NCBI RefSeq assembly: GCF_011303555.1
Contig: NZ_CP049868.1
Location: forward strand, 5,518,001-5,582,000
DNA from: Pedobacter sp. HDW13
Lineage (GTDB): Bacteria; Bacteroidota; Bacteroidia; Sphingobacteriales; Sphingobacteriaceae
DNA: 64,000 nucleotides
Direction of reading: 5' to 3'
In this document: positions 11,620 to 64,000 of the stretch, piece after piece
Layout: each line of letters starts with the position of its first letter
How positions within the stretch are numbered: position 1 is the stretch's first letter
Notes under the pieces: model-generated
Seen by the model: only the letters and a program-made list of their open reading frames with translations
Database searches by the model: none
Told to the model about the DNA's origin: nothing
Translations under genes and position numbers: made by a program

Positions 11620-11631
11620 ATTGTAAAAGCA

Positions 11632-11961: not shown

Positions 11962-11962
11962 A

Positions 11963-12817: not shown

Positions 12818-12852
12818 GTTAAAAGGTTCTTTATTGTATTTAAAATAGGGTA

Positions 12853-18260: not shown

Positions 18261-18297
18261 GGGGATGAAGCGATGAAATCGCTGATCACATGCAAGC

Positions 18298-18524
18298 CCT
18301 GTCCGTAGTGTTAAGCAACGCGTCACTACGGATTGGCGAATAGAATTGAGTTTACAACTCAGTAACAAAGAACGAGTCAGAGACTCTTTTCCATGCGAAA
18401 ATCCGTAGAGCCCTTCGGAACTCTACGGACAGATGAGGAAATTAAGCGATAAAATTGCTAATCAGGTCCGTCCTCGTTACAAACGAGGACGATATAGAGA
18501 TGCCGAAATAAATTCAGCATGACG
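18298..18524. repeat. cluster of intergenic palindromes
   Basis: This covers most of the 283-base gap between two enzyme genes. It holds tccgtagtg/cactacgga (18302-18310 and 18324-18332), tccgtagag/ctctacgga (18402-18410 and 18421-18429) and cgtcctcgtt/aacgaggacg (18469-18478 and 18482-18491), all perfect. A copy of the gctgaaataaattcagcatgacg type follows (18498-18524). Confidence 0.8.
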
Positions 18525-18543
18525 AAATTTATTAACAAAGCAG

Positions 18544-20121: not shown

Positions 20122-20122
20122 C

Positions 20123-22939: not shown

Positions 22940-22955
22940 ACATGAATAATAAAAT

Positions 22956-22990
22956 CGTCATTGCGAGGAGGAACGACGAAGCAATCTCCT
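22956..22990. repeat. cgtcattgcgagg-type repeat at gene junction
   Basis: The motif cgtcattgcgagg, then gaacgacgaagcaatctc lies between the GH95 stop and the true start of the next gene. A shorter copy occurs at 58964-58990. It is read through by the in-frame upstream extension of the GH2 gene (see that entry). Confidence 0.75.
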
Positions 22991-23043
22991 GTAATAGATA
23001 CTTCCGAGGCCCTGGTTCATGTCTACACGAACCTAAAATCAAT

Positions 23044-45192: not shown

Positions 45193-45194
45193 TT

Positions 45195-46595: not shown

Positions 46596-46600
46596 ATAAT

Positions 46601-46679
46601 CGTCATTTCGACTGGAGTGAAGCGGAATGGAGAAATCTATTTAAAGGATGTGAGATTCCCGCCTGCGCGGGAATGACGA
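46601..46679. repeat. hybrid palindromic repeat
   Basis: The left half is the cgtcatttcgact/agaaatct type, the right half the attcccgcctgcgcgggaatgacg type seen at 1271 and 57708. It lies in the 115-base gap before the GH43 gene. Confidence 0.8.
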
Positions 46680-46710
46680 TCAGGGAAGTAAAGAAATAAC
46701 AAAAAAAAAC

Positions 46711-47643: not shown

Positions 47644-47650
47644 CTCGTAC

Positions 47651-47683
47651 AAACCTTGCAGGTTTTAAGAACCTGTAAGGTTT
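47651..47683. repeat. aaacctta palindromic repeat, second copy
   Basis: It reads aaaccttgcaggttt then aagaacctgtaaggttt, 1-2 differences from the copy at 29181-29213, in the gap between the GH43 gene and the sialidase-like gene. Confidence 0.8.
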
Positions 47684-47722
47684 AAATAAGAACTCAGTGC
47701 CTTAGTAGTTAAAATATTAAAA

Positions 47723-49555
47723 ATGAAAATATTTAAAATAATTAGTTTAGTCCTGTTGTTTGCATTGGCGATATCAAACGCGCAAGCGCAAGATACCGTG
47801 CGTTACACAGGCAAAACACTGGTTAATGCCGATTATCATCATGGCCAGCTAACACCGGTAGTGGGCGTGCACAATATTCAAACTTTCAGGGCGAACAGGG
47901 AACACCCTGAACTGGCCGAAAACTTTGGTTGGACTTATAACCACGCACCCATGCTGGCTTACTGGAATAACCGTTTTTATGTAGAATATTTAAGCGATAA
48001 AGTAGGAGAAAGCATCCCGCCGGGACAAACTTTACTACAATCGTCGAAAGATGGTTATACCTGGACCAAACCCGATGTAATTTTTCCGGTTTACCGTATT
48101 CCTGATGGCACTACAAAAGAAGGGCGCACCGATGTAGCTAAAGATCTCGATGCGGTGATGCACCAACGGATGGGTTTTTATGTATCCACCAAAAACGTAT
48201 TCCTGGTTTTGGGCTTTTATGCCATTAGTTTCGATGCCAAAGATGATCCAAACGATGGGCATGGCATTGGCCGGGCGGTGCGCGAAATTCAGGCAGACGG
48301 CAAATACGGACCAATTTATTTCATTCACTACAATCCAGGTTATTCAGAAAAAAACACCCGATATCCTTATTATACAAAAAGTAAAAGCAAAGCTTTTGTT
48401 GAAGCTTGTAAGGAGTTGTTGACCAATAAATTAATGACCCAGCAATGGAACGAAGAGGCAGACCGAAAAGATCCGCTTATCACCTTGCAGAAGCAATACA
48501 AAGCGTTTAGCTATTACCATTTGCCTGATGGCCGCGTAGTAGGCTTATGGAAAAATGCACTAACGGCTATCAGTACCGACAATGGTAAAAGCTGGCCTGA
48601 AAGTGCTTTCCGTGCACCCGGTTTTGTAAACAGCAACGCCAAAATATGGGGACAGAAAACAAGCGATGGTAATTATGCAACAGTATATAATCCATCCGAA
48701 TACCGCTGGCCACTTGCCATCTCTACCAGCAAAAATGGCTTAGACTATACTGACCTGTCCTTAGTTAACGGCGAAATCTCTCCGATGCGCTATGGCGGCA
48801 ATTACAAATCCTATGGTCCACAATATGTGCGCGGCATAGAAGAAGGCAACGGAAAACCTGCCGACGGGAAACTTTGGGTAACCTACAGCATGAATAAAGA
48901 AGATATCTGGGTTTCTGGTATTCCGGTACCGGTAAGCACCACGGTAAAAACGCATGTAAACGATGATTTTAGTAAAATGCCGGCCGAACAGGCTTTAGCA
49001 TTTTGGAATATTTACAGCCCGTTATGGGCACCTGTAAAGGTTGAAAACGGTAATCTGGTTTTAAAAGACAAAGATCCCTTTGATTATGCCAAAGCTGAAC
49101 GCGTATTTCCTGCATCGGCTAAGCTAAGTGCTTCTTTCTCAGTCACTCCGAAACAGGATAATTTTGGCTTATTGGAAATTGAGCTGCAAGACGAGAAAGG
49201 CATGGCTACCGTTCGTTTAACTTTCGATACTGCAGGCGTGTTAAGTGCAAAAGCAGGTGCACGTTACAAAAACTTCCTAAAATATAAAGCTGGCGAAACT
49301 TACGATATTAAACTAAAACTAACCACCGCGAATCGTTTTTACACCATAACGGTTAACGGCAAAGATGTGCTCACCAGCCTGGCCTTTCAACCTCTAGCCA
49401 ATGTTTCGCGCATTGTGTTCCGCACCGGAGATGTTCGCCGTTTCCCGGATGTTGATACACCTGCCGATCAGACCTACGATTTAAAAAATGCGGGCGAAGC
49501 CGAGAAAAAAGAAGCTGTTTACCTGATTAAATATTTAAAAACGGAGGGATTATGA
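47723..49555 (+). CDS. sialidase-like propeller enzyme with C-terminal beta domain
   Basis: The product is 610 residues with a signal peptide ending AQAQ. The first 390 residues are a BNR-type propeller (TLLQSSKDGYTWTKPDV, AISTDNGKSWPES, ISTSKNGLDYTD), and the last 190 a jelly-roll with PAEQALAFWNIYSP and ASFSVTPKQDNFGLL. It is automatically named exo-alpha-sialidase in many genomes, but the Arg triad of true sialidases is not obvious. The size, layout and company of pectin enzymes fit the GH143 half (DHA hydrolase) of a known rhamnogalacturonan-II enzyme whose other half resembles the 16707 gene; this is a hypothesis. The stop overlaps the next gene's first in-frame ATG (ATGA). Confidence 0.6.
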   Translation: MKIFKIISLVLLFALAISNAQAQDTVRYTGKTLVNADYHHGQLTPVVGVHNIQTFRANREHPELAENFGWTYNHAPMLAYWNNRFYVEYLSDKVGESIPPGQTLLQSSKDGYTWTKPDVIFPVYRIPDGTTKEGRTDVAKDLDAVMHQRMGFYVSTKNVFLVLGFYAISFDAKDDPNDGHGIGRAVREIQADGKYGPIYFIHYNPGYSEKNTRYPYYTKSKSKAFVEACKELLTNKLMTQQWNEEADRKDPLITLQKQYKAFSYYHLPDGRVVGLWKNALTAISTDNGKSWPESAFRAPGFVNSNAKIWGQKTSDGNYATVYNPSEYRWPLAISTSKNGLDYTDLSLVNGEISPMRYGGNYKSYGPQYVRGIEEGNGKPADGKLWVTYSMNKEDIWVSGIPVPVSTTVKTHVNDDFSKMPAEQALAFWNIYSPLWAPVKVENGNLVLKDKDPFDYAKAERVFPASAKLSASFSVTPKQDNFGLLEIELQDEKGMATVRLTFDTAGVLSAKAGARYKNFLKYKAGETYDIKLKLTTANRFYTITVNGKDVLTSLAFQPLANVSRIVFRTGDVRRFPDVDTPADQTYDLKNAGEAEKKEAVYLIKYLKTEGL

Positions 49556-49616
49556 GGCAGTTGACAGTTTACAGTTCGGAGTTTGCAGTTTTCCCTTCAT
49601 TGCGCTTAAAGCGCTT

Positions 49617-49698
49617 CGTCATTCCGACTGTAGCGAAGGAATCTTTTAAGCAAACTATTAAGATTTCTCGGCTACGTTGCACTTCGCTCGAAATGACG
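49617..49698. repeat. cgtcattcc/aatgacg repeat at gene junction, supplies a start codon
   Basis: It begins cgtcattccgact and ends tcgctcgaaatgacg, with inner gaaggaatctt and agatttctcgg. The final aATGacg contains the probable start codon (49693) of the acetylesterase gene. Confidence 0.75.
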
Positions 49699-51114
49699 AT
49701 AATCATTACGCTCTTATCGTTTTTTTCGCTTACCACCAATGCCAAAATCCTGTTGCCGCAAATCTTATCCAGCAATATGGTTTTGCAACGCGATAAACCC
49801 ATCACGATCTGGGGCTTCGCAGCTGTTGGCGAAAAAGTAACGGTTACCTTTGCAGGCCAGAAAAAAGAAGCGATTGCCGGCCAAAACGGAAGCTGGGCAG
49901 TGGTATTAAATCCATTAAAAACATCGGCAGAGCCACAAAGCATGATCATTTCTGGTGCTAATACAATCGAACTCAGCAATATCCTGATTGGTGAGGTATG
50001 GCTTTGCTCCGGCCAGTCGAACATGGAATATGCCATGCGTAAACTTGCCAAAATCCCGAAACCAAAAAACGACAAACTGGGTTTCCCGGCTGATGAAGTT
50101 GCACAGGCGAAAAATAAACAGATCAGAATTTTCCTGGTGAATAGAAAAACGTTGATTAAACCCGATTCTATTCATAAAAGCTGGAGTGTAGCCCAGGATT
50201 CAGCCTTGCGGGCTTTTTCGGCTGTAGGTTATTTCTTTGCGAAGGAACTACAGCAAAAGCTCGGCGTTCCGGTGGGGGTAATTTCTTCCGCTGTACCCGG
50301 CAGCGCCATCGAGCCCTGGATTAGTCAGGAAGCATTTGCTACAGAACCTTATTTCAAAAACGAAAAAGTGGGTAACGATCCGGGCAAGTTTTATACACCA
50401 ATGATTGAACCGCTTTCCAAATTTAAAATCGCTGGCTTTTTATGGTATCAGGGAGAAACCAATTGCTTTTTAAGCGAAACGATCAGCTACAGTTATAAAA
50501 TGAAAACGCTGATAAACCTCTGGCGCAAAGCATGGGGCGAAAGTAATCTGCCTTTTTATTATGTGCAGATTGCCCCTTTCGATTACAGCAAGCAAAAAAG
50601 CGATAAAGTGGTATTGACCGCCGATACAGAGCCTGCTTTTTGGGAAGCACAAGAACAGATCTTACGCTTGCCCAATACCGGAATGGTTTCAACCTCCGAT
50701 TTAAACGATAACGGTGGCGATTTACATCCAACTTATAAATGGGAGGTAGGCAGGCGTTTAGCACTTTGGGCTTTAGCCAAAACTTACAAGCAAAAAACAG
50801 ACTTTTCTGGTCCTGTTTATAAAACAGTCGCCTTTAAAGGCGATAAAGCCGTACTCGATTTCGAATATTTAAATGCAAACGCTTCTGATACTGTTACCGG
50901 CTTTACACTGGCAGGTGCTGATGGCAAATTTGTACCAGCCAATGCAGTTATCAAAGCCGGCAAGGTATGGGTTTCTGCTAAAGATGTAGCGCTGCCTAAA
51001 GCGGTGCGCTATAACTGGACAGAAAATCCCACCGGAAATTTTTACAACCACGGTTTACCCGCTTTACCTTTTCGAACCGATAATCCATTAAACCAGCAAT
51101 TTAAAACCAATTAA
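49693..51114 (+). CDS. sialate O-acetylesterase-family (SASA) acetylesterase
   Basis: The start ATG at 49693 gives a signal peptide (MTIIITLLSFFSLTTNA) and 473 residues. A longer frame from 49552 (ATGA overlap with the previous gene) would add 47 residues that are repeat sequence. The SGNH motifs are WLCSGQSNMEYAM (nucleophile Ser), GFLWYQGETN and GGDLHPTYKWEVG (catalytic Asp and His), and the FLYWS-like N-terminal Ig domain precedes them. Such enzymes remove acetyl groups from sugar O-positions; with pectin enzymes around, acetylated rhamnogalacturonan is the likely substrate (sialic acid not). The stop overlaps the next start by one base (TAATG). Confidence 0.85.
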   Translation: MTIIITLLSFFSLTTNAKILLPQILSSNMVLQRDKPITIWGFAAVGEKVTVTFAGQKKEAIAGQNGSWAVVLNPLKTSAEPQSMIISGANTIELSNILIGEVWLCSGQSNMEYAMRKLAKIPKPKNDKLGFPADEVAQAKNKQIRIFLVNRKTLIKPDSIHKSWSVAQDSALRAFSAVGYFFAKELQQKLGVPVGVISSAVPGSAIEPWISQEAFATEPYFKNEKVGNDPGKFYTPMIEPLSKFKIAGFLWYQGETNCFLSETISYSYKMKTLINLWRKAWGESNLPFYYVQIAPFDYSKQKSDKVVLTADTEPAFWEAQEQILRLPNTGMVSTSDLNDNGGDLHPTYKWEVGRRLALWALAKTYKQKTDFSGPVYKTVAFKGDKAVLDFEYLNANASDTVTGFTLAGADGKFVPANAVIKAGKVWVSAKDVALPKAVRYNWTENPTGNFYNHGLPALPFRTDNPLNQQFKTN

Positions 51115-53888
51115 TGTTAAAACGAGCATCACTATTTCTTTGCTTTACTTTACTGTTTTGCCTGGCAAAGGCACAACAAACAGAGAAATTATATCTATCG
51201 GGTACGGGTAACGACAATACGGTAAACTGGGAATTCTTTTGTACAGAAGGCATGAATTCGGGCAAATGGACAACCATCCCTGTTCCTTCAAACTGGGAGC
51301 TGCAGGGCTTTGGCAAATACAATTACGGTTTCAACAAAGAAGAAAATAAAGGTAAGGAGCAAGGCCTTTACAAGTATAATTTCAATGTTCCCACTGTCTG
51401 GAAAAATAAGGAAATCAATATCGTTTTTGAAGGCTCGATGACCGATACTGAAGTCAAAATTAATGGTCAGCTGGCGGGAGAGATCCACCAGGGTTCATTT
51501 TATGTTTTTAAATACAACATTTCCAAACTGATTAAATTTGGAAGCGATAATTTACTTGAAGTAAAAGTAGCTAAACATTCTGCCAATGAATCGGTTAACA
51601 ATGCAGAACGCAATGCTGATTTCTGGATTTTTGGTGGTATTTTCCGTCCGGTTTATCTGGAAGCTTTACCCCAAACCCACATCAACAGCGTACAAATCAA
51701 TGCACAAGCTAATGGAATATTGGCTGCAAATATTTTAACCACTGGTGATGCTGATCAAATTTTGGTTCAATTAACCGATGTAAAAGGAAATAAATTCGGT
51801 AGTAATACCGCTTTTAAAATTACAGGGGCTAGCACGAGGATCAACCAGGCGTTTAAAAACCCCGCGCTTTGGTCGTCGGAGTTCCCGAATTTATATACCG
51901 CTACTTTTAAGCTAAGCAAGAATGGAAAAATGCTCCATACGCTTACCAAAAAAATAGGTTTCAGAACGGTAGAACTACGCGAGCGCGATGGCGTGTATGT
52001 TAACGGCGTAAAAATGAAATTCAAAGGGGTAAACCGACATTCCTTTTACCCATCATCTGGCCGTACCACCAGTAAGAAAATCAGCATTGCCGATGTGAAG
52101 TTAATGAAAGAAATGAACATGAATGCTGTTCGCATGTCGCATTACCCGCCTGACGGCCACTTTTTAGATGTTTGCGATTCATTGGGCTTATTTGTGATGG
52201 ATGAACTGGCAGGCTGGCACGGCACATACGATACCCCAACCGGCACCAAATTATTTAAAGAAATGATGGCTAATGATGAAAACCATCCGTCTATTATATT
52301 TTGGGCCAATGGAAACGAAGGTGGCCATAACCGCGAACTCGATCACCTTTTCCCCGAAAACGACATTCAAAAAAGACCATTAATCCATCCCTGGGAAGTT
52401 TTTGGCGGTTTTGAAACCACGCATTACCGCGAATTTAATTATGGCATTGGCAATTACGATCATGGCCATAACATTTTAATGCCTACTGAGTTCCTTCATG
52501 GCATGTGGGATGGTGGCCACGGTGCGGGTATTGAGGATTACTGGAACGCGATGTGGAACAATCCGCTTTCGGCCGGAGGCTTTCTCTGGGACTTTGCCGA
52601 CCAGGCTGTAGTACGCACCGATAAAAACGGCATTTTAGATACCGATGGCAATCATGGCCCAGATGGTATTGTTGGCCCTTACCACGAAAAAGAAGGTAGT
52701 TTTTTTACAATCAAGGAAGTTTGGAGTCCTGTGTTTGTCGAAAAAAGAGAAATCACACCAGCATTTGACGGAGCGTTGCGCCTGGAGAACAGATATGCTT
52801 TTACTAATCTGAATCAATGCAGCTTTGAATGGAAACTGAAAAGCCTGAAAAACGATGGTACCGAAGCGTATTTCAAAGCAGGCAAAGCTGATGCGCCCGA
52901 TATTAAACCCTTTCAGAAAGGAAAACTACAAATTAACCTTCCGGCCGGCTGGAAGAATTTCGATGCCTTATATTTAACTGCAAAAGATGTTTATGGTCAG
53001 GAATTATTTACCTGGAGCTTCCCAATCAGCCTGCCGAAAGATGATGCCGCTAAGCTAGTAGTAACTACTGGTCCATCGAAAGTGAACCTGAAAGAATCGG
53101 CGACGCTTTTTCAGGTTTCGGCCAATGGCATCCAACTCACTTTCGATAAAACCACCGGCCTGTTGCAGAAAGCCGAAAATACCAAAGGAATTATCCCTTT
53201 TAACAACGGACCTGTTTTACAGGAAGGTGTAAATAACTTCAAAAATTTCACAAGCAGAATGGACGGGCAAAACCTGGTTATTGCTTCTACTTTTGACCGC
53301 AAGGAGAGTTACAATACCTTAGAGTGGACCATTTATCCATCGGGCTGGTTAAAAATGCAGGTAAAATATTTCCCTGCCGCTTATTTTACCACTTTCGTGG
53401 GTTTAAACTTTTCTTACCCCGAAACCGAAATTAAAGGCGTAACTTATAAAGGAAACGGTCCTTACCGGGTTTGGAAAAACCGAATGAAAGGCACGCAGCT
53501 GGGTATTTGGAAAAAAGATTACAACGATTCCGCCACCGGAGAACCAGCCTGGCAGTACCCTGAATTTAAGGGCTACTACTCGAATATGTACTGGTGCGAA
53601 TTTGTGGGCAGGCAACAATCTTTTAAAGTAGTAACCGATCGGGAAGATGTTTTCCTGAGGTTATTTACCCCAAAAAAATCGAAAGACACAGAATATGATA
53701 ACATGAGCCCAACTTTTCCTAATGGGGATATTTCTTTCATGAATGGAATATCTGCTATTGGTACCAAAACACAAAAACCAGAAACAACCGGCCCGATGGG
53801 CATGAAGCATGTTTTTTACGATTTTGAAAAAGAACCGGCGAGAGCATTGGATATGACCTTGTATTTTGATTTTTCACCTAAGAATTAA
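51114..53888 (+). CDS. GH2 beta-galactosidase-like enzyme
   Basis: The product is 924 residues with a signal peptide ending KAQQ. Domains: GH2 jelly roll (IPVPSNWELQGFGKYNYGF, about 55-190), Ig-like (190-280), TIM barrel from GVYVNGVKMKFKGVNRHSF with acid/base Glu402 in NGNEGGHNREL and nucleophile Glu459 in PTEFLHG, GFLWDFADQAV, and C-terminal domains to 924. It lacks the malectin domain of the other GH2 (23044). GH2 enzymes here probably remove beta-galactose, beta-glucuronic acid or beta-arabinopyranose from pectin side chains. The start overlaps the SASA gene stop (TAATG). It may not need its own promoter. Confidence 0.9.
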   Translation: MLKRASLFLCFTLLFCLAKAQQTEKLYLSGTGNDNTVNWEFFCTEGMNSGKWTTIPVPSNWELQGFGKYNYGFNKEENKGKEQGLYKYNFNVPTVWKNKEINIVFEGSMTDTEVKINGQLAGEIHQGSFYVFKYNISKLIKFGSDNLLEVKVAKHSANESVNNAERNADFWIFGGIFRPVYLEALPQTHINSVQINAQANGILAANILTTGDADQILVQLTDVKGNKFGSNTAFKITGASTRINQAFKNPALWSSEFPNLYTATFKLSKNGKMLHTLTKKIGFRTVELRERDGVYVNGVKMKFKGVNRHSFYPSSGRTTSKKISIADVKLMKEMNMNAVRMSHYPPDGHFLDVCDSLGLFVMDELAGWHGTYDTPTGTKLFKEMMANDENHPSIIFWANGNEGGHNRELDHLFPENDIQKRPLIHPWEVFGGFETTHYREFNYGIGNYDHGHNILMPTEFLHGMWDGGHGAGIEDYWNAMWNNPLSAGGFLWDFADQAVVRTDKNGILDTDGNHGPDGIVGPYHEKEGSFFTIKEVWSPVFVEKREITPAFDGALRLENRYAFTNLNQCSFEWKLKSLKNDGTEAYFKAGKADAPDIKPFQKGKLQINLPAGWKNFDALYLTAKDVYGQELFTWSFPISLPKDDAAKLVVTTGPSKVNLKESATLFQVSANGIQLTFDKTTGLLQKAENTKGIIPFNNGPVLQEGVNNFKNFTSRMDGQNLVIASTFDRKESYNTLEWTIYPSGWLKMQVKYFPAAYFTTFVGLNFSYPETEIKGVTYKGNGPYRVWKNRMKGTQLGIWKKDYNDSATGEPAWQYPEFKGYYSNMYWCEFVGRQQSFKVVTDREDVFLRLFTPKKSKDTEYDNMSPTFPNGDISFMNGISAIGTKTQKPETTGPMGMKHVFYDFEKEPARALDMTLYFDFSPKN

Positions 53889-53891
53889 CCC

Positions 53892-54027
53892 CAGATGAAT
53901 TGGATAAACACAGATAAAAAATACTTTTAATTACACTATTGGATTATTGCAGAAAAGATCAGTGTTTATTTGTGTGCATCTGTGGCAAAAAATAATTAAC
54001 GAAATCAGTGTAATCACCACAAAAAAA
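53892..54027. repeat. cagat-rich repeat before GH78 gene
   Basis: It holds ccagatgaattggataaacacag and gatcagtgtttatttgtgtgcatc, then tgtggcaaaaaat, a common intergenic repeat style (compare 2361-2400). An in-frame TTG at 53947 would read this as protein, but the real start is at 54028. Confidence 0.55.
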
Positions 54028-56769
54028 ATGAACATTAAAACCTACATATCGATAATCATACTGCTGCTGTTGCTGCCATTCCAGAAAGTGGTGGCCCAGG
54101 TGAGTCTGCAAAACCTGAAATGCGAGATGTTGGTTAATCCATTAGGTATTGATGTAACACAACCCCGGTTGAGCTGGGAAATCATTTCTTCAAAACGTAA
54201 TGTTATACAAAAAGCTTATCAGGTTCTGGTGGCTTCAACCGCCGAAAAACTGGCACAAAATGAAGGCGATCTCTGGAATTCGGGAAAGGTAAATAACGAA
54301 GAGTCGATCCACGTTAAATACAATGGACAAGCACTGACCAGCAGAATGCGCTGTTACTGGAAGGTAAAAACCTGGACTACTGCCGGCGAAAGCGAATGGT
54401 CAGCACCCAATTCGTGGACGATGGGCTTACTCAACTACAAAGACTGGCCGAAAGGCTGGATTGGTTTCGACAGGGCTTTTCCCTGGGATAATACCAAAAC
54501 CGATTCCCGCTTATCCGTACGTTATTTCAGGAAGGAATTTCAAAACACTAAAAAAGTAAAATATGCCACGGCCTCCATTATTGGTCTGGGCTTGTACCAG
54601 CTTTACCTGAATGGCAAAAAAGTAGGCGAGGAGGTACTCACACCTTCACCAACCGATTACAATAAAAACGTAAAGTACAATACTTACGATGTTACCTCGT
54701 ATTTGCAGGAAGGAAAAAATGCGGTAGGTGCTGTTTTAGGCAATGGTCGTTTCTTCGCCATGCGGCAAAACGAAAAACCCTACAAAATTAAAACCTTTGG
54801 TTTTCCTAAAATGCTGCTGAACATCCGTATCGTTTACAGTGATGGCAGTACGGCCAATATCGATACTGATGACAGCTGGAAAGGCACTGCCGATGGACCT
54901 ATCAGGGCCAATAACGAATACGACGGCGAAGAATACGACGCAACAAAAGAAGCGATTGGCTGGAATAAGGCAGGTTTTGACGACAGCAAATGGCTGAAAG
55001 CAGAGTTTGTTCAGGAACCTTTGGGAACCATCGAGGCCCAGATGAACGAAAATATGCGGGTGATGAATACGCTCAAACCCCTTTCAGTTAAGACAATCCC
55101 GGGTGGCAGATACCTGCTGGATATGGGACAGAACATGGTTGGCTGGCTACAGATTAAAGTAAAGGGGCAGAAAGGCAAACAGGTTAAATTGCGCTTTGCC
55201 GAATCACTACAGGAAAATGGCGAGCTGTTTACCGCAAACCTGCGCAATGCCAAATGCACTGATTTATATACTTTTAAAGGAAACGAAGCAGAATCTTGGG
55301 AACCCACTTTTGCTTACCGGGGTTTTAGGTATGTAGAAATATCTGGACTGAATTATACCCCCAGCCTGAATGATTTTACCGGAAAAATGATCTACGACAA
55401 AATGAACACCGTAGGTACTTTCGAAACTTCAAATGCGCTAACCAATCAGATTTTTAAAAATGCCTGGTGGGGAATTGCCGGTAACTATAAGGGCATCCCG
55501 ATCGACTGCCCGCAACGCAACGAACGCATGCCCTGGTTAGGCGACAGAGGTGCTGTAGCACACGGCGAAAATTTCCTGTTCGATAATGGAAAATTTTATG
55601 CCAAGTGGCTGCAGGATATCAGAAATGCACAAAAAGAAGATGGTGCCATCCCCGATGTTGCACCTGCTTTTTGGCGCTATTACAGCGATAACATGAGCTG
55701 GCCAGGTTCTATTGTACTTATTACCGAAATGCTCTACAAACAAACCGGCGATGTAAATGCGGTAACCGATAATTATCCTGCCATCAAAAAGTGGCTTCGC
55801 TACATGCAGGAGCGGTACATGAAGGATTACATCCTCACCAAAGACAGTTATGGCGATTGGTGCATGCCACCTGTAACCATTGAAACGGGCAGAGGTAAAA
55901 GCGCAGATAAAAAATATCCTTCCGAATTGATTTCGACGGCTTATTACTACCACTTTACACAACTGATGATGCAGTTTAGCCAGATAAGCGGAAATGATAA
56001 TGATTACAAAGAATTTAAAGCATTAGGCGATAAAATTAAAGCAGCCTTTAATCAGAAATTCTACAATGAAAAAGGCTTTTATGCCAGCAACAACTTAACA
56101 GATAACATTATTCCGCTGTATTTCGGAATGGTACCTGAAGCGAATATTAATCAGGTTTTCAAAAACATCGTGTACACGGTTGAAGTAACCAATAAAGGGC
56201 ATTTAAGTAATGGTTTGGTTGGGGTACAGTGGCTAATGCGCTGCTTAAACGATTACGGCCGGTCAGATTTGGCCTACACCATTGCCACGCAAAAAACTTA
56301 CCCGGGTTGGGGTTACATGATCGATAACGGTGCAACCACCATCTGGGAGCTCTGGAACGGAAATACTGCTGATCCGAAAATGAATTCGCAAAACCATGTA
56401 ATGATGCTGGGCGATTTGCTAATCTGGTATTACGAAAATCTGGCGGGTATTAAGGCCGAAAGTCCGGCGTTTAAAAAAATTACCATGAAACCCGAAATGA
56501 TTAACGGTTTGGACCAGGTAACTGCGGGTTATCATTCCGCTTATGGCCTGATTAAAAGCAGTTATAGCAAAACAGATAATAAGTTTAACTGGAAAATTAG
56601 CATTCCGGCCAATACAACAGCTACGCTTTACATTCCTGCTAAAAACAAAAATGCAGTTACAGAAAGCTTAGGTTCAATAAGAGATTTAAAATTTATAAAA
56701 TTAGAAAAAGACAGGGCCATTTATGAAGTAGGGTCGGGAGATTATGAGTTTGTGGTGGAGCAGAAATAA
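54028..56769 (+). CDS. GH78 alpha-L-rhamnosidase
   Basis: ATG at 54028 gives a signal peptide (MNIKTYISIIILLLLLPFQ, then KVVAQ) and 913 residues. Domains: Ig-like (LKCEMLVNPLGIDVTQPRL, about 30-130), Bac_rhamnosid_N jelly roll (AIIGLGLYQLYLNGKKVG-type, 160-320), Bac_rhamnosid (330-430), then the (alpha/alpha)6 barrel with catalytic acid Glu499 in PQRNERMPWLGD and base Glu774 in TTIWELWNG, and a C-terminal beta-sandwich to 913. GH78 removes terminal alpha-L-rhamnose by inversion; rhamnogalacturonan II side chains or RG-I ends are the substrate. It lies 139 bases downstream of GH2, with a repeat between. Confidence 0.93.
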   Translation: MNIKTYISIIILLLLLPFQKVVAQVSLQNLKCEMLVNPLGIDVTQPRLSWEIISSKRNVIQKAYQVLVASTAEKLAQNEGDLWNSGKVNNEESIHVKYNGQALTSRMRCYWKVKTWTTAGESEWSAPNSWTMGLLNYKDWPKGWIGFDRAFPWDNTKTDSRLSVRYFRKEFQNTKKVKYATASIIGLGLYQLYLNGKKVGEEVLTPSPTDYNKNVKYNTYDVTSYLQEGKNAVGAVLGNGRFFAMRQNEKPYKIKTFGFPKMLLNIRIVYSDGSTANIDTDDSWKGTADGPIRANNEYDGEEYDATKEAIGWNKAGFDDSKWLKAEFVQEPLGTIEAQMNENMRVMNTLKPLSVKTIPGGRYLLDMGQNMVGWLQIKVKGQKGKQVKLRFAESLQENGELFTANLRNAKCTDLYTFKGNEAESWEPTFAYRGFRYVEISGLNYTPSLNDFTGKMIYDKMNTVGTFETSNALTNQIFKNAWWGIAGNYKGIPIDCPQRNERMPWLGDRGAVAHGENFLFDNGKFYAKWLQDIRNAQKEDGAIPDVAPAFWRYYSDNMSWPGSIVLITEMLYKQTGDVNAVTDNYPAIKKWLRYMQERYMKDYILTKDSYGDWCMPPVTIETGRGKSADKKYPSELISTAYYYHFTQLMMQFSQISGNDNDYKEFKALGDKIKAAFNQKFYNEKGFYASNNLTDNIIPLYFGMVPEANINQVFKNIVYTVEVTNKGHLSNGLVGVQWLMRCLNDYGRSDLAYTIATQKTYPGWGYMIDNGATTIWELWNGNTADPKMNSQNHVMMLGDLLIWYYENLAGIKAESPAFKKITMKPEMINGLDQVTAGYHSAYGLIKSSYSKTDNKFNWKISIPANTTATLYIPAKNKNAVTESLGSIRDLKFIKLEKDRAIYEVGSGDYEFVVEQK

Positions 56770-57816: not shown

Positions 57817-58947
57817 ATGATATTCAAAAGAACTTTAACCATAGCCGCAGTAGCATTCGCTTTAACCGCCAATGCTCAGGTAGAAAAATGGCAAACCGGT
57901 ATAGTTAAGCAGGAGTTTTTATACGAAAAGGCACCGTTTCCGTCTTGTCACTCGGCTACTATTGCCGAAACGCCAACAGGCCTGGTGGCTTCATTTTTTG
58001 GAGGTACCAAAGAAAGAAATCCAGATGTGGAGATTTACATCAGCCGCTTTGTTGATGGAAAATGGCTGGCACCGGTTTCGGTAGCGAATGGTATTATGGC
58101 CGATGGTAAACGATTACCTACCTGGAACCCGGTATTGTATCAGGTACCCGGCGGCGATTTATTGTTATTCTACAAAATCGGACCTAAGCCTTCAGAATGG
58201 TGGGGTATGATGCGAACCTCAAAAGATGGTGGTAAAACCTGGTCGGAAGCTACGAAATTGCCTGCGGGGAACATCGGTCCGGTTAAAAATAAGCCCGTAC
58301 TGCTAAGCAACGGAAACCTGTTCGCGTCATCGAGCCGGGAGGGTGATGGCTGGAAAGTACATTTCGAGGTAACTAAAGATAATGGCAAAACCTGGCGTAC
58401 CGTAGGCCCATTACAAGAAAATGGGCTTAAAGCCATTCAACCCAGCATTCTGCAATACGGAAAGGGTAAACTGCAAATTTTAGCACGTACCGCCAACCGG
58501 GCAGTTGCCGAGTCATGGTCGGCTGATAATGGCGAAACCTGGACACCGCTTACCAAAACTACATTGCCCAACAACAACTCGGGTACCGATGCCGTTACGC
58601 TGAAAGATGGCCGCCAGGTATTGGTTTACAACCATGTGCTGCCTCCGGGCGATTTAGCGAAAGGAGCACGCACACCGTTAAATGTTTCTGTTTCTAAAGA
58701 TGGTAAAACCTGGTACGCAGCACTGATTTTAGAAGATTCGCCCATTAGCCAGTATTCTTATCCGGCTGTAATCCAAACGGCTGATGGCATGCTACATTTC
58801 ATTTATACCTGGAGAAGGGAAAAGATCAAACATGTAGTAGTAGACCCCTCAAAGCTAAAATTGAAGAAAATTGAAAATGGCATTTGGCCAAAACTGAACG
58901 GATATGCCGCACCGGTAATTACAGAAACCAAAAACGAGGAGCCATGA
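57817..58947 (+). CDS. sialidase-like (BNR) propeller protein
   Basis: The product is 376 residues with a signal peptide ending TANAQ. It has several Asp-boxes: MRTSKDGGKTWS, TKDNGKTWRT, SADNGETWT and SVSKDGKTWYA, giving a six-bladed propeller. The motif FPSCHSATIAETPTG near residue 45 is characteristic of a large Bacteroidota group named exo-sialidase whose targets are mostly unproven. No sialic-acid genes accompany it apart from the family names here, so a pectin sugar acid such as Kdo may be the true target; this is inference. The stop overlaps the next ATG (ATGA). Confidence 0.75.
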   Translation: MIFKRTLTIAAVAFALTANAQVEKWQTGIVKQEFLYEKAPFPSCHSATIAETPTGLVASFFGGTKERNPDVEIYISRFVDGKWLAPVSVANGIMADGKRLPTWNPVLYQVPGGDLLLFYKIGPKPSEWWGMMRTSKDGGKTWSEATKLPAGNIGPVKNKPVLLSNGNLFASSSREGDGWKVHFEVTKDNGKTWRTVGPLQENGLKAIQPSILQYGKGKLQILARTANRAVAESWSADNGETWTPLTKTTLPNNNSGTDAVTLKDGRQVLVYNHVLPPGDLAKGARTPLNVSVSKDGKTWYAALILEDSPISQYSYPAVIQTADGMLHFIYTWRREKIKHVVVDPSKLKLKKIENGIWPKLNGYAAPVITETKNEEP

Positions 58948-60440
58948 GAAATCTAAACCGATACGTCATTGCGAGGAACGAAGCAATCTTAATGCGTCTG
59001 AAGTTGTCTTTGGCTCCATGCTATCACCCTTTGAAGGGGAGGGTGACAAAACTACTTGCCATTGTAATAGTTTGGGTTCTTTCTATCGAAGCCGTTTCTG
59101 CCCAAACTCAAAATTCAGATAACGCCTACAAAAAACCTTTAATAGAGGTACTTAAAGCCATTGAAACCCGCTATAACGTAAAGATTAAATATGCTGAACC
59201 ACAGGTAAAAGATAAGTGGGTAAATTATGCCACATGGCGTTTTCGGGCAAATGTTGACGAAACCTTAGCCAACGTGCTTACGCCGCTGGACATGAAAGTT
59301 AACAAAGAGAAACCAGGGGTTTACAAACTTAAAGAATACGAATATTACCGTTGGGAGGTACAAGATGGTTGGGCTTATTTGGATAGCTTGGCTTCAAAAT
59401 ATACAGATAAAGCGAGCTGGGAAAAACGGAAAGCCTTAATAAAACCTCAGCTTTTTGAAGCCTTGCAACTATCGCCTTTACCAGCTAAACCAGATGCGAA
59501 GCCCATTATAACCGCTAAAAGAATTTTCGACGGCTATTCGGTAGAAAACATAGCGCTGGAGATTTTACCCGGCGTTTGGATTAACGGATCACTTTATAAA
59601 CCATTAAATATCAAAGGCAAAACACCACTTATCTTAAGTCCTGATGGACATTGGGAAAAACAGCGCTACCGTGCTGATTGTCAGATTCGTTGTGCCATGC
59701 TGGCCAGAATGGGCGCAATGGCTTTCAGTTACGACCTTTTTGCCTGGGGCGAATCGATGTTGCAGTTTAAGTATGAAGATCACCGAAAAAGCCTGGCGCA
59801 AACCGTGCAAACATTGGGTGGAATCCGTATTTTGGATTATTTCACCAAATTAAAGGAAACCGATACCAACAGGGTAGCCATTAGTGGTGGTTCGGGAGCT
59901 GGCAGTCACTCGATTTTAATGACTGCCATGGATAACCGTATTAAGCTCAGCGCACCGGTGGTGGCCATGTCATCATACTTTTATGGTGGTTGCCCTTGCG
60001 AAAGCGGTATGCCCATTCACCAATGCGCTGGCGGAACCGATAATGTAGAACTGGCTGCAATGGCTGCACCAAGACCACAATTACTCGTATCGGATGGCAG
60101 CGACTGGACTGCGCATACGCCTGAACACGATTTTCCATACCTGCAAAAAATGTATGGCTATTATGGCGTAAAAGATAAAGTTGAAAATGTGCATTTACCC
60201 GACGAAAAGCATGATTTCGGACCAAATAAGCGCATTGCCCTTTACGACTTTCTGATTAAATATTTCAAGCTTAACGGTAATGCGGTAAAAGACAAATCCG
60301 GAAAATACGACGAAAGCAAAGTAACCATCGAAAAAGAAAATGCCTTGTATGTTTTTGGCGATAAGGGAGAAAAATTACCCAAAAACGCTGTTATGGGTTT
60401 TGAGAACCTGCAAAAAATGTTTCCACAAAGCCTGAATTAA
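58944..60440 (+). CDS. STN-domain acetyl/xylan esterase-like hydrolase
   Basis: The ATG at 58944 overlaps the previous stop (ATGA) and gives 498 residues, but its first 33 codons run through a cgtcattgcgagg repeat. A GTG at 59043 after gaaggggagg gives a proper signal (VTKLLAIVIVWVLSIEAVSAQ), so the mature protein is the same. Residues after the signal (about 30-110) resemble a secretin/TonB N-terminal (STN) domain (YKKPLIEVLKAIETRYNVKI). The rest is an alpha/beta hydrolase of the dienelactone/AXE1 group: ILSPDGHWEKQRYR, AFSYDLFAWGESM, nucleophile Ser in AISGGSGAGSHSI, and the late DEKHDFGPNKR His. Deacetylation of pectin is the likely role. It is followed by the TIM-barrel gene after 3 bases. 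Confidence 0.75.
   Translation: MRNLNRYVIARNEAILMRLKLSLAPCYHPLKGRVTKLLAIVIVWVLSIEAVSAQTQNSDNAYKKPLIEVLKAIETRYNVKIKYAEPQVKDKWVNYATWRFRANVDETLANVLTPLDMKVNKEKPGVYKLKEYEYYRWEVQDGWAYLDSLASKYTDKASWEKRKALIKPQLFEALQLSPLPAKPDAKPIITAKRIFDGYSVENIALEILPGVWINGSLYKPLNIKGKTPLILSPDGHWEKQRYRADCQIRCAMLARMGAMAFSYDLFAWGESMLQFKYEDHRKSLAQTVQTLGGIRILDYFTKLKETDTNRVAISGGSGAGSHSILMTAMDNRIKLSAPVVAMSSYFYGGCPCESGMPIHQCAGGTDNVELAAMAAPRPQLLVSDGSDWTAHTPEHDFPYLQKMYGYYGVKDKVENVHLPDEKHDFGPNKRIALYDFLIKYFKLNGNAVKDKSGKYDESKVTIEKENALYVFGDKGEKLPKNAVMGFENLQKMFPQSLN
58964..58990. repeat. cgtcattgcgagg repeat inside 5' end of the esterase gene
   Basis: It reads cgtcattgcgaggaacg and then aagcaatctt, as at 22956-22990. A second repeat word, ccctttgaaggggagggtg, follows just before the GTG at 59043. 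Confidence 0.75.
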
Positions 60441-60443
60441 ATT

Positions 60444-61337
60444 ATGGAACACCAGAACAGAAGAACTTTTATTCACCATCTCGCATTAATTAGCGGTGGC
60501 TTAATGCTGCCCAATATTTTGCAGGCGGCTCCCCTAAAAAGCAGATACAAAGTAGCTGTAATTGATTTGATGATACTCAAACGTCAGAAATTAAGCGCAT
60601 TAGACCTGACCAGTGAAATTGGAGCCGATGGATTGGAAATCGATATGGGCGGGCTGGGCGACCGGGAAACCTTCGACAATAAACTGGCAGATCCGGGCAT
60701 CCGCCAGCAATACATAGAAAAAGCAAAAGCGCTTAACCTCGAATTTTGTGCATTGGCCATGACCGGTTTTTATGCACAGTCTTTTGCCAAACGTCCTACC
60801 TACCAAAAAATGGTGCAGGATTGTTTAGATACCGCTAAAGCCATGCACATTAAGATAGTCTTTTTACCATTGGGCATACAGGGCGATCTGGTTAAAAATC
60901 CTGAATTGAGGGTACCCATTGTTGAACGTTTAAAAATAGCAGGTAAAATGGCTCGAAAGGCAGGTGTAGTGATTGGTATCGAAACCGCACTGGATGCCAA
61001 AGGCGAATTACAGTTGCTGAAGGAAATCAACTGTAAAAACATCAGAAGCTATTTCAATTTTTCTAATGCGATCAAAAATGGCCGCGATTTACACGAGGAG
61101 CTAAGAATATTGGGACGCAAAAACATCATACAAATTCATGCCACCAACGAAGATGGGGTTTGGCTCGAAAACGACCCCAAAATTGACCTCAAAAAGGTAA
61201 AACAAACTTTAGATGAAATGGGCTGGATCGGTTGGCTCGTTATTGAACGCAGTCGTGATGCCAAACAGCCTACTAATGTGAAATACAACTTTACCGCCAA
61301 CACCAAATACCTGAAGTCCATTTTCCAAGCCGGATAA
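60444..61337 (+). CDS. sugar phosphate isomerase/epimerase-like TIM barrel, Tat-exported
   Basis: The product is 297 residues. The N-terminus NRRTFIHHLALISGGLML carries a twin-Arg signal, so it is folded before export. The rest is an AP-endonuclease-2 type barrel: YKVAVIDLMILKRQKLSAL, GADGLEIDMGGLGDRE, VVIGIETALDAKGELQLL and the closing GWLVIERSRDA, with Glu and His residues at typical metal places (IGIETAL, IIQIHATNEDG). Family members isomerise or epimerise free sugars, or dehydrate inosose; the substrate here is unknown. Its place between an esterase and a fucosidase-like fusion suggests it acts on a sugar released in the periplasm. It follows the esterase by 3 bases. Confidence 0.8.
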   Translation: MEHQNRRTFIHHLALISGGLMLPNILQAAPLKSRYKVAVIDLMILKRQKLSALDLTSEIGADGLEIDMGGLGDRETFDNKLADPGIRQQYIEKAKALNLEFCALAMTGFYAQSFAKRPTYQKMVQDCLDTAKAMHIKIVFLPLGIQGDLVKNPELRVPIVERLKIAGKMARKAGVVIGIETALDAKGELQLLKEINCKNIRSYFNFSNAIKNGRDLHEELRILGRKNIIQIHATNEDGVWLENDPKIDLKKVKQTLDEMGWIGWLVIERSRDAKQPTNVKYNFTANTKYLKSIFQAG

Positions 61338-61347
61338 CCATTTTGTT

Positions 61348-63858
61348 ATGAGAATTTACCTAACCATTTTGTTGATTTTAAATTTAATGTGCTCGCAATT
61401 AAATGCGGCTGATATTTATGTCTCTAAAATCGGTTCAGATCGCAATAGTGGTACAAAGGAAAAACCATTAGCTTCCTTACATTTTGCCATCCGGAAGGCG
61501 AGGGAGTTGCGGCGCTTAAACGATAATTCGATTAAAGGCGGGATTAATATCATCATTGAAAATGGTTATTACACTTTAGACGAAACCATTGTCCTTCGAC
61601 CGGAAGATTCAGGCACAAAAGATAATCCGACACAGATTATGGCTACTCCCGGCGCAAGCGTTATTTTTAGTGGCGGTATAAAAATTAAGGGCTGGAAGAA
61701 ATTAACCACATCCCTTGCAGGTTTACCTAAAAAGGCCACAGGTAAAGTTTGGATGGCTGATGCCCCTATGTTTGCCGATAATACTTTGCAGTTCAGGCAG
61801 CTCTGGGTAAATGGCAATAAGGCTGTTCGGGCTAAAGATGCCAATGGCGATGTCATGAACAGGATTTTATCCTGGGATGCACAATCTCAAACCTGCAAAA
61901 TCCCCTTAAACAAAAACATCAACCTGAGTAAGGCAAAAGGTATCGAAATGGTGATACATCAATGGTGGGCCATTGCCAATTTGCGGGTAAAATCGGTAAA
62001 AAATCAAAACAATGCTGCTGAGCTTTCCTTTTTACAGCCCGAAAGCCGCATACAATCTGAGCATCCCTGGCCAGCGCCATGGATTTCTGACAAAACCGGA
62101 AACTCTGCTTACTATCTTACCAATGCCATTCAGTTTTTAGATGAACCAGGCGAATGGTTCGAAGACCTACAGCAGCATAAAGTATATTACTGGCCCACAT
62201 CCGCGCAAAATATGCTTCAGGCAGATGTGGTTGCGCCGGCTTTAGAAAGCCTGGTAAAGGCGGCCGGAACAGTTGATCATCCGGTGTCGTACATTTCGTT
62301 TAAGGACATATCTTTTCAGCATGCATCATGGTTATTGCCATCCAAGCAAGGCCACGTACCGCATCAGGCAGGCATGTACATGCTCGATGCCTATAAGTTA
62401 GACCAACCGGGAACTGCCGATAAACCGACATTAGAGAATCAGGCCTGGGTTGGCCGGCCAGCTTCGGCTATCGAAATCAGCTACGCCAATCACATCGATT
62501 TTGAAGGTTGCAGATTCGAACACCATGCTTCAACCGGTATAGATTACCAAAAAGGAACGACTAACAACCAGATTAAAGGCAACTTGTTTAAAGATATTGG
62601 CGGATCGGGTATACTCATTGGTACTTTTTCGGATGAAGCTACTGAGGTACATTTGCCTTACCAACCTTCAGATGAGCGCGAAATTTCGGCTAACAACCTG
62701 ATCGAAAACAATCTGATTACCGATGTAACCAACGAAGACTGGGGTGCGGTTGGTATTGGTGCGGGTTACGTGCGTGCGCTGAAAATCATCCATAACGAAA
62801 TCAGCGATGTTTCTTACTCCGGAATTAGCATGGGTTGGGGCTGGACAAAAACCAAAAACGCAATGAAGGATAACACCATCAGCGGCAATAAAATCCATCA
62901 TTACGGCAAACACATGTACGATGTGGCCGGCATTTACACTTTATCAGCCCAGCCGAACTCTTTTATTACCGAAAATGTGATCGATAGCATTTACACAGCC
63001 AGGTATGCACACCTTCCCGACCACTGGTTTTACCTGTACACAGATGAGGGATCTTCGTTCCTTACCATTAAAGATAACTGGACACCAAGCGAAAAATACC
63101 TGCAAAATGCCAACGGACCCGATAATTCATGGGAGAATAACGGGCCGGAGGTTCCCCAAAAAATCAAGCAAAATGCAGGACTAACACCTCCATACCAGTA
63201 CCTGCTTAAAGATAAATCACCTATTTCTGCCACCCGAAAAATAAATAACGCAATAGATAAGCCCGTTGTTTTTGAGCTGATTTTTAAAGCTGGAGCCGTA
63301 CCCAACGATAAAACCCTGACAGCATTTGCCCGCGAAAATAACCTTTTAAGATCATCCATTTACAGCTGGGAAAACCGTTTGGTGGTTTACACTTCAAACT
63401 TAAAAACAGAAAGTTTACAGCAAACTTTAAAAAGGCTCAATGCCACTGAGATTAAGTTGTACGAGAATATGTTTTACGATTTCGACCGGAAACAGCAATG
63501 TGGAACAGCACCGGTAAAAGAATGGGACAATATTATTCTATCGGCCAATCTGATTAATGACGAAAAGCTGCAAAAAGAATACCTCGATTACCACAAAACA
63601 CAATTCGAGAAATGGCCCGAAATATCAAAAGGTTTTTGCAATGCCGATTTTCAACGCCTGGTTATCTTTAAAAAAGACCGTCAGCTGATGTTGATTATCA
63701 GCATACCCAAAGGTGCAGATTTAAATAAACTGAACCCTAAAACAACCGAAAACAACCCTAAAGTTGATGAATGGAATGCATTAATGAAAAAATACCAGGA
63801 AGGAATAGCAGGCACCAAACCCGGCGAGGTTTGGGTTTTCTTTAAACCTATAGACTGA
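61348..63858 (+). CDS. GH141-like beta-helix enzyme fused to two mutarotase-like domains
   Basis: The product is 836 residues. A signal peptide (to LNAA) is followed by a right-handed beta-helix of about 600 residues (DIYVSKIGSDRNSGTKEKPL, ILRPED-type SGTKDNPTQIMATPG, LWVNGNKAVRAKDANGD, NLIENNLITDVTNEDWG). This order resembles GH141 alpha-L-fucosidases or related xylan/galactosidase helices. Residues 637-719 (from DKPVVFELIF) and 720-836 form two ferredoxin-like units; the second matches the RhaM-type mutarotase at 11632: His749 in DYHKTQFEKWPEI kept, catalytic Tyr replaced by Phe774 in RLVIFKKDR. There is no stop or frameshift at the joint. It starts 10 bases after the previous stop. The mutarotase link is strong; GH141 itself needs a search. 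Confidence 0.7.
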   Translation: MRIYLTILLILNLMCSQLNAADIYVSKIGSDRNSGTKEKPLASLHFAIRKARELRRLNDNSIKGGINIIIENGYYTLDETIVLRPEDSGTKDNPTQIMATPGASVIFSGGIKIKGWKKLTTSLAGLPKKATGKVWMADAPMFADNTLQFRQLWVNGNKAVRAKDANGDVMNRILSWDAQSQTCKIPLNKNINLSKAKGIEMVIHQWWAIANLRVKSVKNQNNAAELSFLQPESRIQSEHPWPAPWISDKTGNSAYYLTNAIQFLDEPGEWFEDLQQHKVYYWPTSAQNMLQADVVAPALESLVKAAGTVDHPVSYISFKDISFQHASWLLPSKQGHVPHQAGMYMLDAYKLDQPGTADKPTLENQAWVGRPASAIEISYANHIDFEGCRFEHHASTGIDYQKGTTNNQIKGNLFKDIGGSGILIGTFSDEATEVHLPYQPSDEREISANNLIENNLITDVTNEDWGAVGIGAGYVRALKIIHNEISDVSYSGISMGWGWTKTKNAMKDNTISGNKIHHYGKHMYDVAGIYTLSAQPNSFITENVIDSIYTARYAHLPDHWFYLYTDEGSSFLTIKDNWTPSEKYLQNANGPDNSWENNGPEVPQKIKQNAGLTPPYQYLLKDKSPISATRKINNAIDKPVVFELIFKAGAVPNDKTLTAFARENNLLRSSIYSWENRLVVYTSNLKTESLQQTLKRLNATEIKLYENMFYDFDRKQQCGTAPVKEWDNIILSANLINDEKLQKEYLDYHKTQFEKWPEISKGFCNADFQRLVIFKKDRQLMLIISIPKGADLNKLNPKTTENNPKVDEWNALMKKYQEGIAGTKPGEVWVFFKPID

Positions 63859-63912: not shown

Positions 63913-64000
63913 ATGTTAAGATTAGGAATATTAGGATTAGGCGAGGGTAGAAGCACCATTTCTGCCTCACTGGCAAGCACCAAATTTAAACTGATTCAAA
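63913..64000 (+). CDS. Gfo/Idh/MocA-family oxidoreductase, N-terminal start (truncated)
   Basis: The ATG at 63913 opens a frame that leaves the window after 29 codons. The first strand and glycine loop (MLRLGILGLGEGRSTISA) are a Rossmann NAD-binding site of the Gfo/Idh/MocA type. Members oxidise or reduce sugars and inositols. This may be a sugar dehydrogenase at the end of the locus; an L-fucose dehydrogenase is possible but not shown, since only the start is visible. Confidence 0.6.
   Translation, partial: MLRLGILGLGEGRSTISASLASTKFKLIQ

Follow-up and report, generated by a model that had tools for sequence, protein, structure and literature searches.

Why should an enzyme that is exported to cut a polysaccharide carry a domain of mutarotase type? 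The question is raised by a gene near the end of a 64,000-nucleotide stretch of the Pedobacter sp. HDW13 genome (contig NZ_CP049868.1, positions 5,518,001 to 5,582,000; hereafter the window). This gene, at 61348-63858 on the forward strand, is the last complete gene in the window and forms a single uninterrupted frame of 836 amino acids, in which a GH141 glycosidase is joined to a tandem RhaM-type mutarotase-like module. An earlier note on this DNA had drawn attention to the fused gene; that observation is confirmed here, and the interpretation given to it is supported. Signal peptides and lipoprotein ends were called by eye throughout.

61348..63858, + strand: whole gene, an N-terminally exported GH141 glycosidase joined to a tandem RhaM-type mutarotase-like module
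61348..61407, + strand: signal peptide, residues 1-20, a hydrophobic N-terminus (by eye)

The best explanation of the data as a whole, to which we assign a probability of roughly 0.55, is that the protein is an exported two-function enzyme for side chain A of the pectin rhamnogalacturonan II (RG-II). The GH141 part would hydrolyse an alpha-L-fucosyl linkage and yield mainly one anomer. The tail would form a single-chain, pseudo-dimeric RhaM-type alpha+beta barrel in which the second unit (unit 2) holds the active site and the first (unit 1) replaces the second subunit, and it would equilibrate the anomers of the freed L-fucose (or O3-substituted fucose) outside the inner membrane. A neighbouring SGLT-like Na+/sugar symporter would import the favoured anomer, and a Gfo/Idh/MocA oxidoreductase would start catabolism inside the cell. 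Mutarotase activity, its sugar and direction, the coupling to import and the packing of the pseudo-dimer are the parts of this scheme that we infer.

The catalytic part resembles an RG-II enzyme

The GH141_M family (PF21231) was matched at residues 132-283 with 227 bits, against a curated Pfam cut-off of 27, and Beta_helix was matched too. Residues 18-619 aligned with BT_1002 of Bacteroides thetaiotaomicron (PDB 5mqp, a chain of 624 residues) at an E value of 1.2e-211, which amounts to homology across the whole beta-helix. The GH141-like beta-helix claimed previously is thereby borne out.

61405..63204, + strand: GH141 beta-helix catalytic part, residues 20-619, with the GH141_M insertion at 132-283 (PF21231; BT_1002 alignment)
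62920..62922, + strand: Asp525, equivalent to the essential Asp523 of BT_1002 (BT_1002 alignment)
63043..63045, + strand: Asp566, equivalent to the essential Asp564 of BT_1002 (BT_1002 alignment)

The two proteins share the catalytic part, both essential aspartates and an RG-II setting; they differ in that the BT_1002 chain stops where the tail of the 836-residue protein starts, and carries no module. The equivalence of Asp525 and Asp566 to D523 and D564 assumes an inferred chain numbering offset of 5, and both residues are invariant in 34/34 fused sequences. According to sections of two papers (PMC10154630, PMC12786026), D523 and D564 are essential in BT_1002, which is reported in one of them to free MeXyl-alpha-1,3-L-fucose, a disaccharide, from RG-II chain A (PMC10154630). 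By analogy with BT_1002, the GH141 part would hydrolyse an alpha-L-fucosyl linkage of RG-II side chain A, and the 836-residue enzyme of this soil bacterium probably cuts fucose off complex pectin.

The tail ends in a RhaM-type domain with conserved catalytic positions

The end of the protein (residues 720-836) had been described as a RhaM/DUF718-like unit. The rhaM family (PF05336, cut-off 23.4) was indeed matched at residues 739-830, with 43.6 bits (E 3.7e-11) in the whole protein and 49.3 bits in the tail alone, and the domain was placed at 726-836.

63523..63855, + strand: unit 2, residues 726-836, RhaM/PF05336 mutarotase-like domain (Pfam; structure match to 7byu with Z 12.1, root-mean-square deviation (rmsd) 2.7 and 103 residues aligned)
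63580..63594, + strand: Tyr745 and His749, equivalent to Tyr18 and His22 of E. coli RhaM (52/52 modules, 6/6 free RhaM-type proteins)
63613..63621, + strand: Trp756-Pro757-Glu758 (WPE), equivalent to Trp26-Pro27-Glu28 of E. coli RhaM (alignment)
63772..63774, + strand: Trp809, equivalent to Trp76 of E. coli RhaM (52/52 modules, 6/6 free proteins)

We take Tyr18, His22, Trp26-Pro27-Glu28 and Trp76 of RhaM to have catalytic roles. The retention of His749 and WPE, already noticed from the sequence, held in the alignment with E. coli RhaM; within WPE, the Trp and the Pro were found in 52/52 modules, and the Glu in 50/52 modules and in five of the six free proteins compared. Phe774 was likewise correctly seen to stand where RhaM has a tyrosine, which is Tyr44 of the E. 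coli protein (34 Phe and 6 Tyr among 40 sequences of the genus), and E. coli Trp76-Trp77 is replaced by Trp-Asn in the module. Cys718 and Cys764 are invariant across modules, and invariant columns are far more numerous in unit 2 than in unit 1. The free protein at 11632, called a RhaM-type mutarotase in the earlier note, kept its kinship to mutarotases, with the qualification that E. coli RhaM (1x8d, E 1.4e-4) is a more distant match for it than L-fucose mutarotase (7byw/7byu, E 2.9e-8).

The fusion is conserved across Bacteroidota

The tail was found at full length and in the same frame in 40/148 genomes of relatives, the present one included and all of one genus, which establishes the continuity of the joint. 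A wide scan by pattern search of genome contigs (84,980 species) gave 297 confirmed relatives, and the best 80 were kept (the named loci). The same joint was present in 62 of these 80, and the remaining 18 had separate frames of 230-295 amino acids with hydrophobic N-termini. Their sources include Pedobacter, Mucilaginibacter, Chitinophagaceae, Flavobacteriaceae, Hymenobacteraceae and a Paludibacter metagenome-assembled genome (MAG); the closest to the window protein among the best 80 of 297 was Pedobacter ghigonis, with 98% identity in the module. Eight of the 18 separate modules overlap or abut a GH141 gene upstream and four, all from Hymenobacteraceae, have GH141 one gene away. This adjacency of many separate module and GH141 genes supports a joint function. 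On a module tree built with a quick method, the label fused or separate changed six times, two of these changes being forced by starred branches.

Gene arrangement was surveyed in 400 genomes of the taxonomic order with a module search and a GH141_M search, whose genomes were taken as the same set by their shared identifiers. GH141_M rows at E <= 1e-50 were counted as strong GH141 genes, and weaker rows (165 genomes match at 0.001) were left out. Among the matches listed there were 143 strong GH141 genes in 142 genomes: 109 were fused, 30 had a separate module starting within 2.5 kb (one of them, in G239, broken), three had a module 6.4-9.4 kb away, and one (G187) had no module. All 142 listed modules lay within 20 kb of a GH141. 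The genomes are interrelated, and the counts are not independent events. In a class survey of 345 genomes, which included the present one and two others of its genus, 10 had a strong GH141 gene and seven of these were fused.

A local loss of a stop codon or a frameshift joining two genes was ruled out by the frame kept in 40/148 relatives and in 109/143 listed GH141 genes; separate genes do exist (18/80 named loci, 30/143 listed), yet the joint cannot be the accident that the earlier note had allowed for. Two further candidates were rejected. G341 is not a broken fusion, as the reported stop is the ordinary protein end, a few residues early. A 394-amino-acid frame in G075 is not another fusion; its RhaM-type gene is 110 amino acids from stop to stop and lies beside a 283-amino-acid hydrolase gene.

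The module travels with a symporter and an oxidoreductase

The fused gene is followed by two genes whose link to the module the earlier note could not see, because they lie past the end of the window.

63913..64000, + strand: start of a Gfo/Idh/MocA oxidoreductase gene (361 amino acids), running past the window; whole at L149:2914-3999
L149:4172-5761: SGLT-like sodium:solute symporter (529 amino acids), following the oxidoreductase

The nearest solved relatives of the symporter are SGLT1 (E 4.4e-58) and vSGLT (E 2.5e-51), and the oxidoreductase shows weak kinship to DgpA and inositol dehydrogenases; an NCBIfam search of both gave no name beyond family level for either. Partners were counted in named loci with more than 15 kb of sequence, which left out 12 loci with less. 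Both genes were found downstream of the module in 52/52 fused loci, while among the separate ones the symporter was present in 15/16 and the oxidoreductase in 14/16.

Loci without an intact module gave the reverse picture. Four GH141 loci with no module (L157-L160) lack both oxidoreductase and symporter. In a fifth (L164, from G239), a truncated stand-alone module (L164:9860-10560), broken just after the Trp-Pro of WPE, lies beside an intact GH141, and again neither partner is present at the locus. Genome-wide searches of these five genomes found no oxidoreductase orthologue at E 1e-20 and, for the symporter, paralogues of 29-33% at most, with none in G574; both partners are present in G225 and G161, which have an intact module and served for comparison. 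Where GH141 and the module are 6-9 kb apart (L156, L165, L166), oxidoreductase and symporter stay with the module (3/3), and L102, L105 and L107 carry module, oxidoreductase and symporter with no GH141 in the stretch examined. The three genes, whose presence and absence are largely linked, therefore form a unit whose members are for the most part acquired and lost jointly. The tightest partners of the module are the symporter and the oxidoreductase rather than the glycosidase, and GH141 is the usual supplier for this unit.

These data also bear on whether the link is genomic only. The trio might be devoted to another sugar of this pectin, such as one released by the downstream GH78-like protein, with the fusion as a by-product of gene order; that the partners follow the module and not GH141 when the two are apart, and that three loci carry the trio with no GH141 in the stretch examined, would suit such an arrangement. 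It is very unlikely, however, given that 109/143 listed strong GH141 genes are fused and only one lacks a module, that the pairing held while the fused or separate state switched several times, and that all five loci without intact module, oxidoreductase and symporter keep the GH78-like gene after GH141. The action of a mutarotase on the anomer released by GH141, proposed in the earlier note, becomes more plausible through the linkage to symporter and oxidoreductase: that the module is inherited mostly with an importer suggests conversion of the freed sugar into the suitable form ahead of uptake.

The same linkage bears on whether the tail is catalytic at all. The tail could descend from a mutarotase and now, without catalysis, bind sugar, retaining either the substrate or the released sugar close to the glycosidase or to the cell. 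Carbohydrate binding is considered possible for add-on domains of fucosidases in part of one paper (PMC10154630), and one relative (G036) has lost the catalytic part of unit 2 with the remainder in frame. Such a role is nevertheless unlikely. The Tyr, His, Trp-Pro and Trp are invariant in 52/52 modules from several Bacteroidota families, and unit 2 has far more of the invariant columns than unit 1. Moreover, the free-standing form (18/80 named loci) is untethered to a glycosidase, and a linkage to an importer and an oxidoreductase is unexpected for a module that binds a polymer.

One free-standing module stands in other company. In the Paludibacter MAG (L115:7926-13620) it is followed by a GH31 gene, a 365-amino-acid gene and a symporter (61%), with no oxidoreductase or GH141 in the stretch examined; this arrangement may mark another sugar source.

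The tail is predicted to fold as two ferredoxin-like units

63262..63486, + strand: unit 1, residues 639-713, ferredoxin-like, proposed built-in dimer partner (AlphaFold model)

The AlphaFold model of residues 637-836 (mean predicted local distance difference test score (pLDDT) 94, predicted template modelling score (pTM) 0.88) contains two beta-alpha-beta-beta-alpha-beta units. It was compared with known structures by VIA-align, where differences in Z within 1 were read as ties. The best single-domain match was the L-fucose mutarotase 7byu on unit 2 (Z 12.1, rmsd 2.7, 103 residues, 18% identity), and the other mutarotase matches were E. coli YiiL/RhaM 1x8d (Z 10.0), RhaU 2qlw (Z 9.3) and 6hhn (Z 9.3). 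Unit 1, which lacks the catalytic His and WPE positions, matched ACT/PII-type structures over about model residues 1-71 with Z 6.7-7.7, within the range of common arrangements. Six two-domain proteins aligned over model residues 1-200, with 168-174 residues, Z 9.4-11.1 and rmsd 3.8-5.4; they include the alpha+beta-barrel protein PenE (Z 11.1, rmsd 4.8, 174 residues) and 9ltx (Z 10.3, rmsd 3.9, 171 residues). Foldseek alone placed 9ltx, a two-domain polyketide decarboxylase, first and 7byu eighth. The full-length model (pLDDT 82.8, pTM 0.75) came with no inter-domain error, and domain placement was not taken from it.

In the model, the alignments with two-domain proteins fit a packing of the two ferredoxin-like units as one barrel. 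The pseudo-dimer put forward earlier thus agrees with the structure prediction, in which a tandem ferredoxin-like fold matches natural two-domain proteins over its whole length. The accompanying view of unit 1 as a degenerate copy of unit 2 survived in part: the ferredoxin-like fold was found, and a detectable sequence kinship between the units was not. Profile comparison (hhalign Prob 0.2%, E 0.38) showed no similarity and ruled out unit 1 as a recognisable sequence copy, so that the term refers to the fold and the tandem arrangement only.

The whole-length matches include monooxygenases and decarboxylases, and the module might be another enzyme of the dimeric alpha+beta-barrel superfamily that acts on a lactone, keto or oxidised sugar together with the Gfo/Idh/MocA oxidoreductase. 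The weak kinship of the latter to DgpA and inositol dehydrogenases, the invariant Cys718 and Cys764 and the Trp-Asn in place of E. coli Trp76-Trp77 would be in keeping with this. We regard it as quite unlikely, since profile matching places unit 2 in the RhaM family, its catalytic positions match those of RhaM, and a mutarotase is its best single-domain structure match. In addition, the module has a signal sequence and the oxidoreductase has none, so the two would act on different sides of the membrane.

Evidence that weighs against anomer conversion before uptake

Several points count against the two-function enzyme preferred here. With regard to the domain, the aromatic residue at the position of RhaM Tyr44 is mostly Phe, and the L-rhamnose mutarotase equivalog TIGR02625 (cut-off 99.6) was matched neither by the whole protein nor by the tail at E values up to 10; the module is therefore not filed as an L-rhamnose mutarotase. 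With regard to gene content, the stretch examined shows no GH141 for six of the 18 separate modules, and three of the 10 class-survey genomes with GH141 (G480, G574, G591) have no module, which means that GH141 can do without it. In G036, the sixth genome without an intact module and one of the 148 relatives, unit 2 is shorter by about 57 residues, lost in frame and including the His and WPE (L048:1-1953), and the oxidoreductase is intact (81%); a symporter begins on the same contig, with 83% identity over the first 87 residues before the contig ends. This exception, a MAG of 970 contigs, may be an assembly fault or a recent loss.

The chemistry raises further doubts. Methylfucose released by another RG-II enzyme came to anomeric equilibrium on its own within 3 h, according to part of one report (PMC12282258), and given this the benefit of a mutarotase may be small. 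The stereochemistry of GH141 is described as unproven in a section of PMC10154630. A disaccharide product of the BT_1002 type, MeXyl-Fuc, may not be accepted by a fucose mutarotase. Finally, a search of PMC full text found no activity measurement for any member of the module.

Exported RhaM-type lipoproteins form a sister clade

The present genome encodes a second RhaM-type protein (L005), which with 39% identity is the free protein closest to the tail. It has a lipoprotein-like N-terminus and lies in an apparent operon (L150:4545-8685) after genes for an aldo-keto reductase, an enolase-type dehydratase and an SGLT-like symporter; this symporter is 44% identical to the one downstream of the fused gene. 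When 340 genomes were searched with the lipoprotein, 36 matched at E 1e-20, and the neighbours of the 30 best-matching loci of these 36 genomes were checked 1.5 kb to either side. A homologous symporter lay next door in 19/19 lipoprotein-type loci and in 0/9 cytosolic ones; the remaining two loci were fused modules. In a careful tree, the unit 2 domains and the RhaM-type lipoproteins were sister clades apart from the cytosolic proteins (100/99), with the caveat that long branches meet there. Exported RhaM-type proteins appear as a class tied to SGLT-like symporters.

On a wider and more tentative view, Bacteroidota would possess exported RhaM-type mutarotases of a class not yet described, which work with SGLT-like Na+/sugar symporters. 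One branch of this class would have acquired a catalytically silent second unit, giving a one-chain dimer, and been joined to the very RG-II fucosidase whose product it converts, placing cleavage, anomer conversion and uptake in one line.

A third and distant RhaM relative (L003, at L168:6522-6806) was also seen in this genome. It has a lipoprotein-like N-terminus, lies about 1.6 kb from another symporter (30%) and is near an enolase-type match.

Relation to known systems

Mutarotases are usually regarded as intracellular housekeeping enzymes, and RhaM and RhaU are dimeric and cytosolic. E. coli RhaM/YiiL and Rhizobium RhaU, both L-rhamnose mutarotases, share the PF05336 family and fold with unit 2, and the E. 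coli protein has the equivalents Tyr18, His22, WPE and Trp76; both differ in being free single-domain proteins, and the present protein has no TIGR02625 match. The Acidovorax avenae L-fucose mutarotase 7byu, presumably of the COG3254 type, is likewise a single-domain protein, whereas the protein studied here is exported, tandem and fused. GalM-type domains are found joined to other enzymes, either as a mutarotase in the epimerase fusion of yeast Gal10 or with a mutarotase-like fold in the Gal_mutarotas_2 domain of GH31, where it is a structural part; the GalM-type fold differs from the RhaM type, and to our knowledge neither case joins a RhaM-type module to an exported fucosidase.

The closest likeness in proposed working is the sialic acid mutarotase NanM (YjhT), a separate protein with another fold (a six-bladed beta-propeller) and another sugar. 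NanM, which is periplasmic and stands upstream of NanT, acts on the anomer that a glycosidase releases and might increase import through the transporter of the inner membrane, as stated in part of one paper (PMC10017367). Our best reading is that the module would, by analogy, serve the uptake of the GH141-freed sugar as a periplasmic mutarotase, as NanM does for sialic acid.

GH141 and RhaM are known families; the new elements are the fusion itself, the tandem on a single chain and the tie to a symporter, for which no description was found in PMC full text, a search that did not extend to CAZy or InterPro architecture pages. A glycosidase with its own mutarotase, kept by dozens of species and for the most part disappearing along with the importer, would imply that the anomeric form limits the uptake of a pectin sugar. 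An exported RhaM beside a symporter of the sodium:solute symporter family (SSF) would then be a gene signature for sugar-uptake systems, and the SSF symporter and the Gfo/Idh/MocA oxidoreductase become candidates for the steps after GH141.

Genomic setting

13972-26511 and 42031-56769: RG-II-type gene set, adding a GH2 with malectin, DUF6298, GH2 and GH78

Elsewhere in the window, an alpha-D-galacturonidase was matched over its curated cut-off at 13972, an apiosidase lies at 45195 and a BT_1020-like protein at 47723; GH28 and GH95 are also present, and a GH2 resembling beta-glucuronidase/beta-L-arabinofuranosidase fell below its cut-off. We take the galacturonidase, GH28, GH95, apiosidase and BT_1020-like set to mark RG-II use, and this context agrees with the predicted alpha-L-fucosidase role of GH141 on chain A.

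Immediately upstream of the fused gene (57817-61337) are a BNR protein, a glucuronyl-esterase-like protein and a TIM-barrel protein, which recur in 41, 43 and 45, respectively, of the 52 fused named loci. At 9480-13617 on the reverse strand, a cluster that includes the free protein at 11632 resembles a non-phosphorylating L-fucose/L-rhamnose (oxidation) pathway; the NCBIfam equivalog matches of its members were below their cut-offs. These members are FMN (flavin mononucleotide) lactate dehydrogenase-like, fuconolactonase-like, L-fucose-mutarotase-like and 2,4-diketo-sugar-acid hydrolase-like proteins and a short-chain dehydrogenase/reductase (SDR), as in the oxidation pathway outlined in part of PMC11199699.

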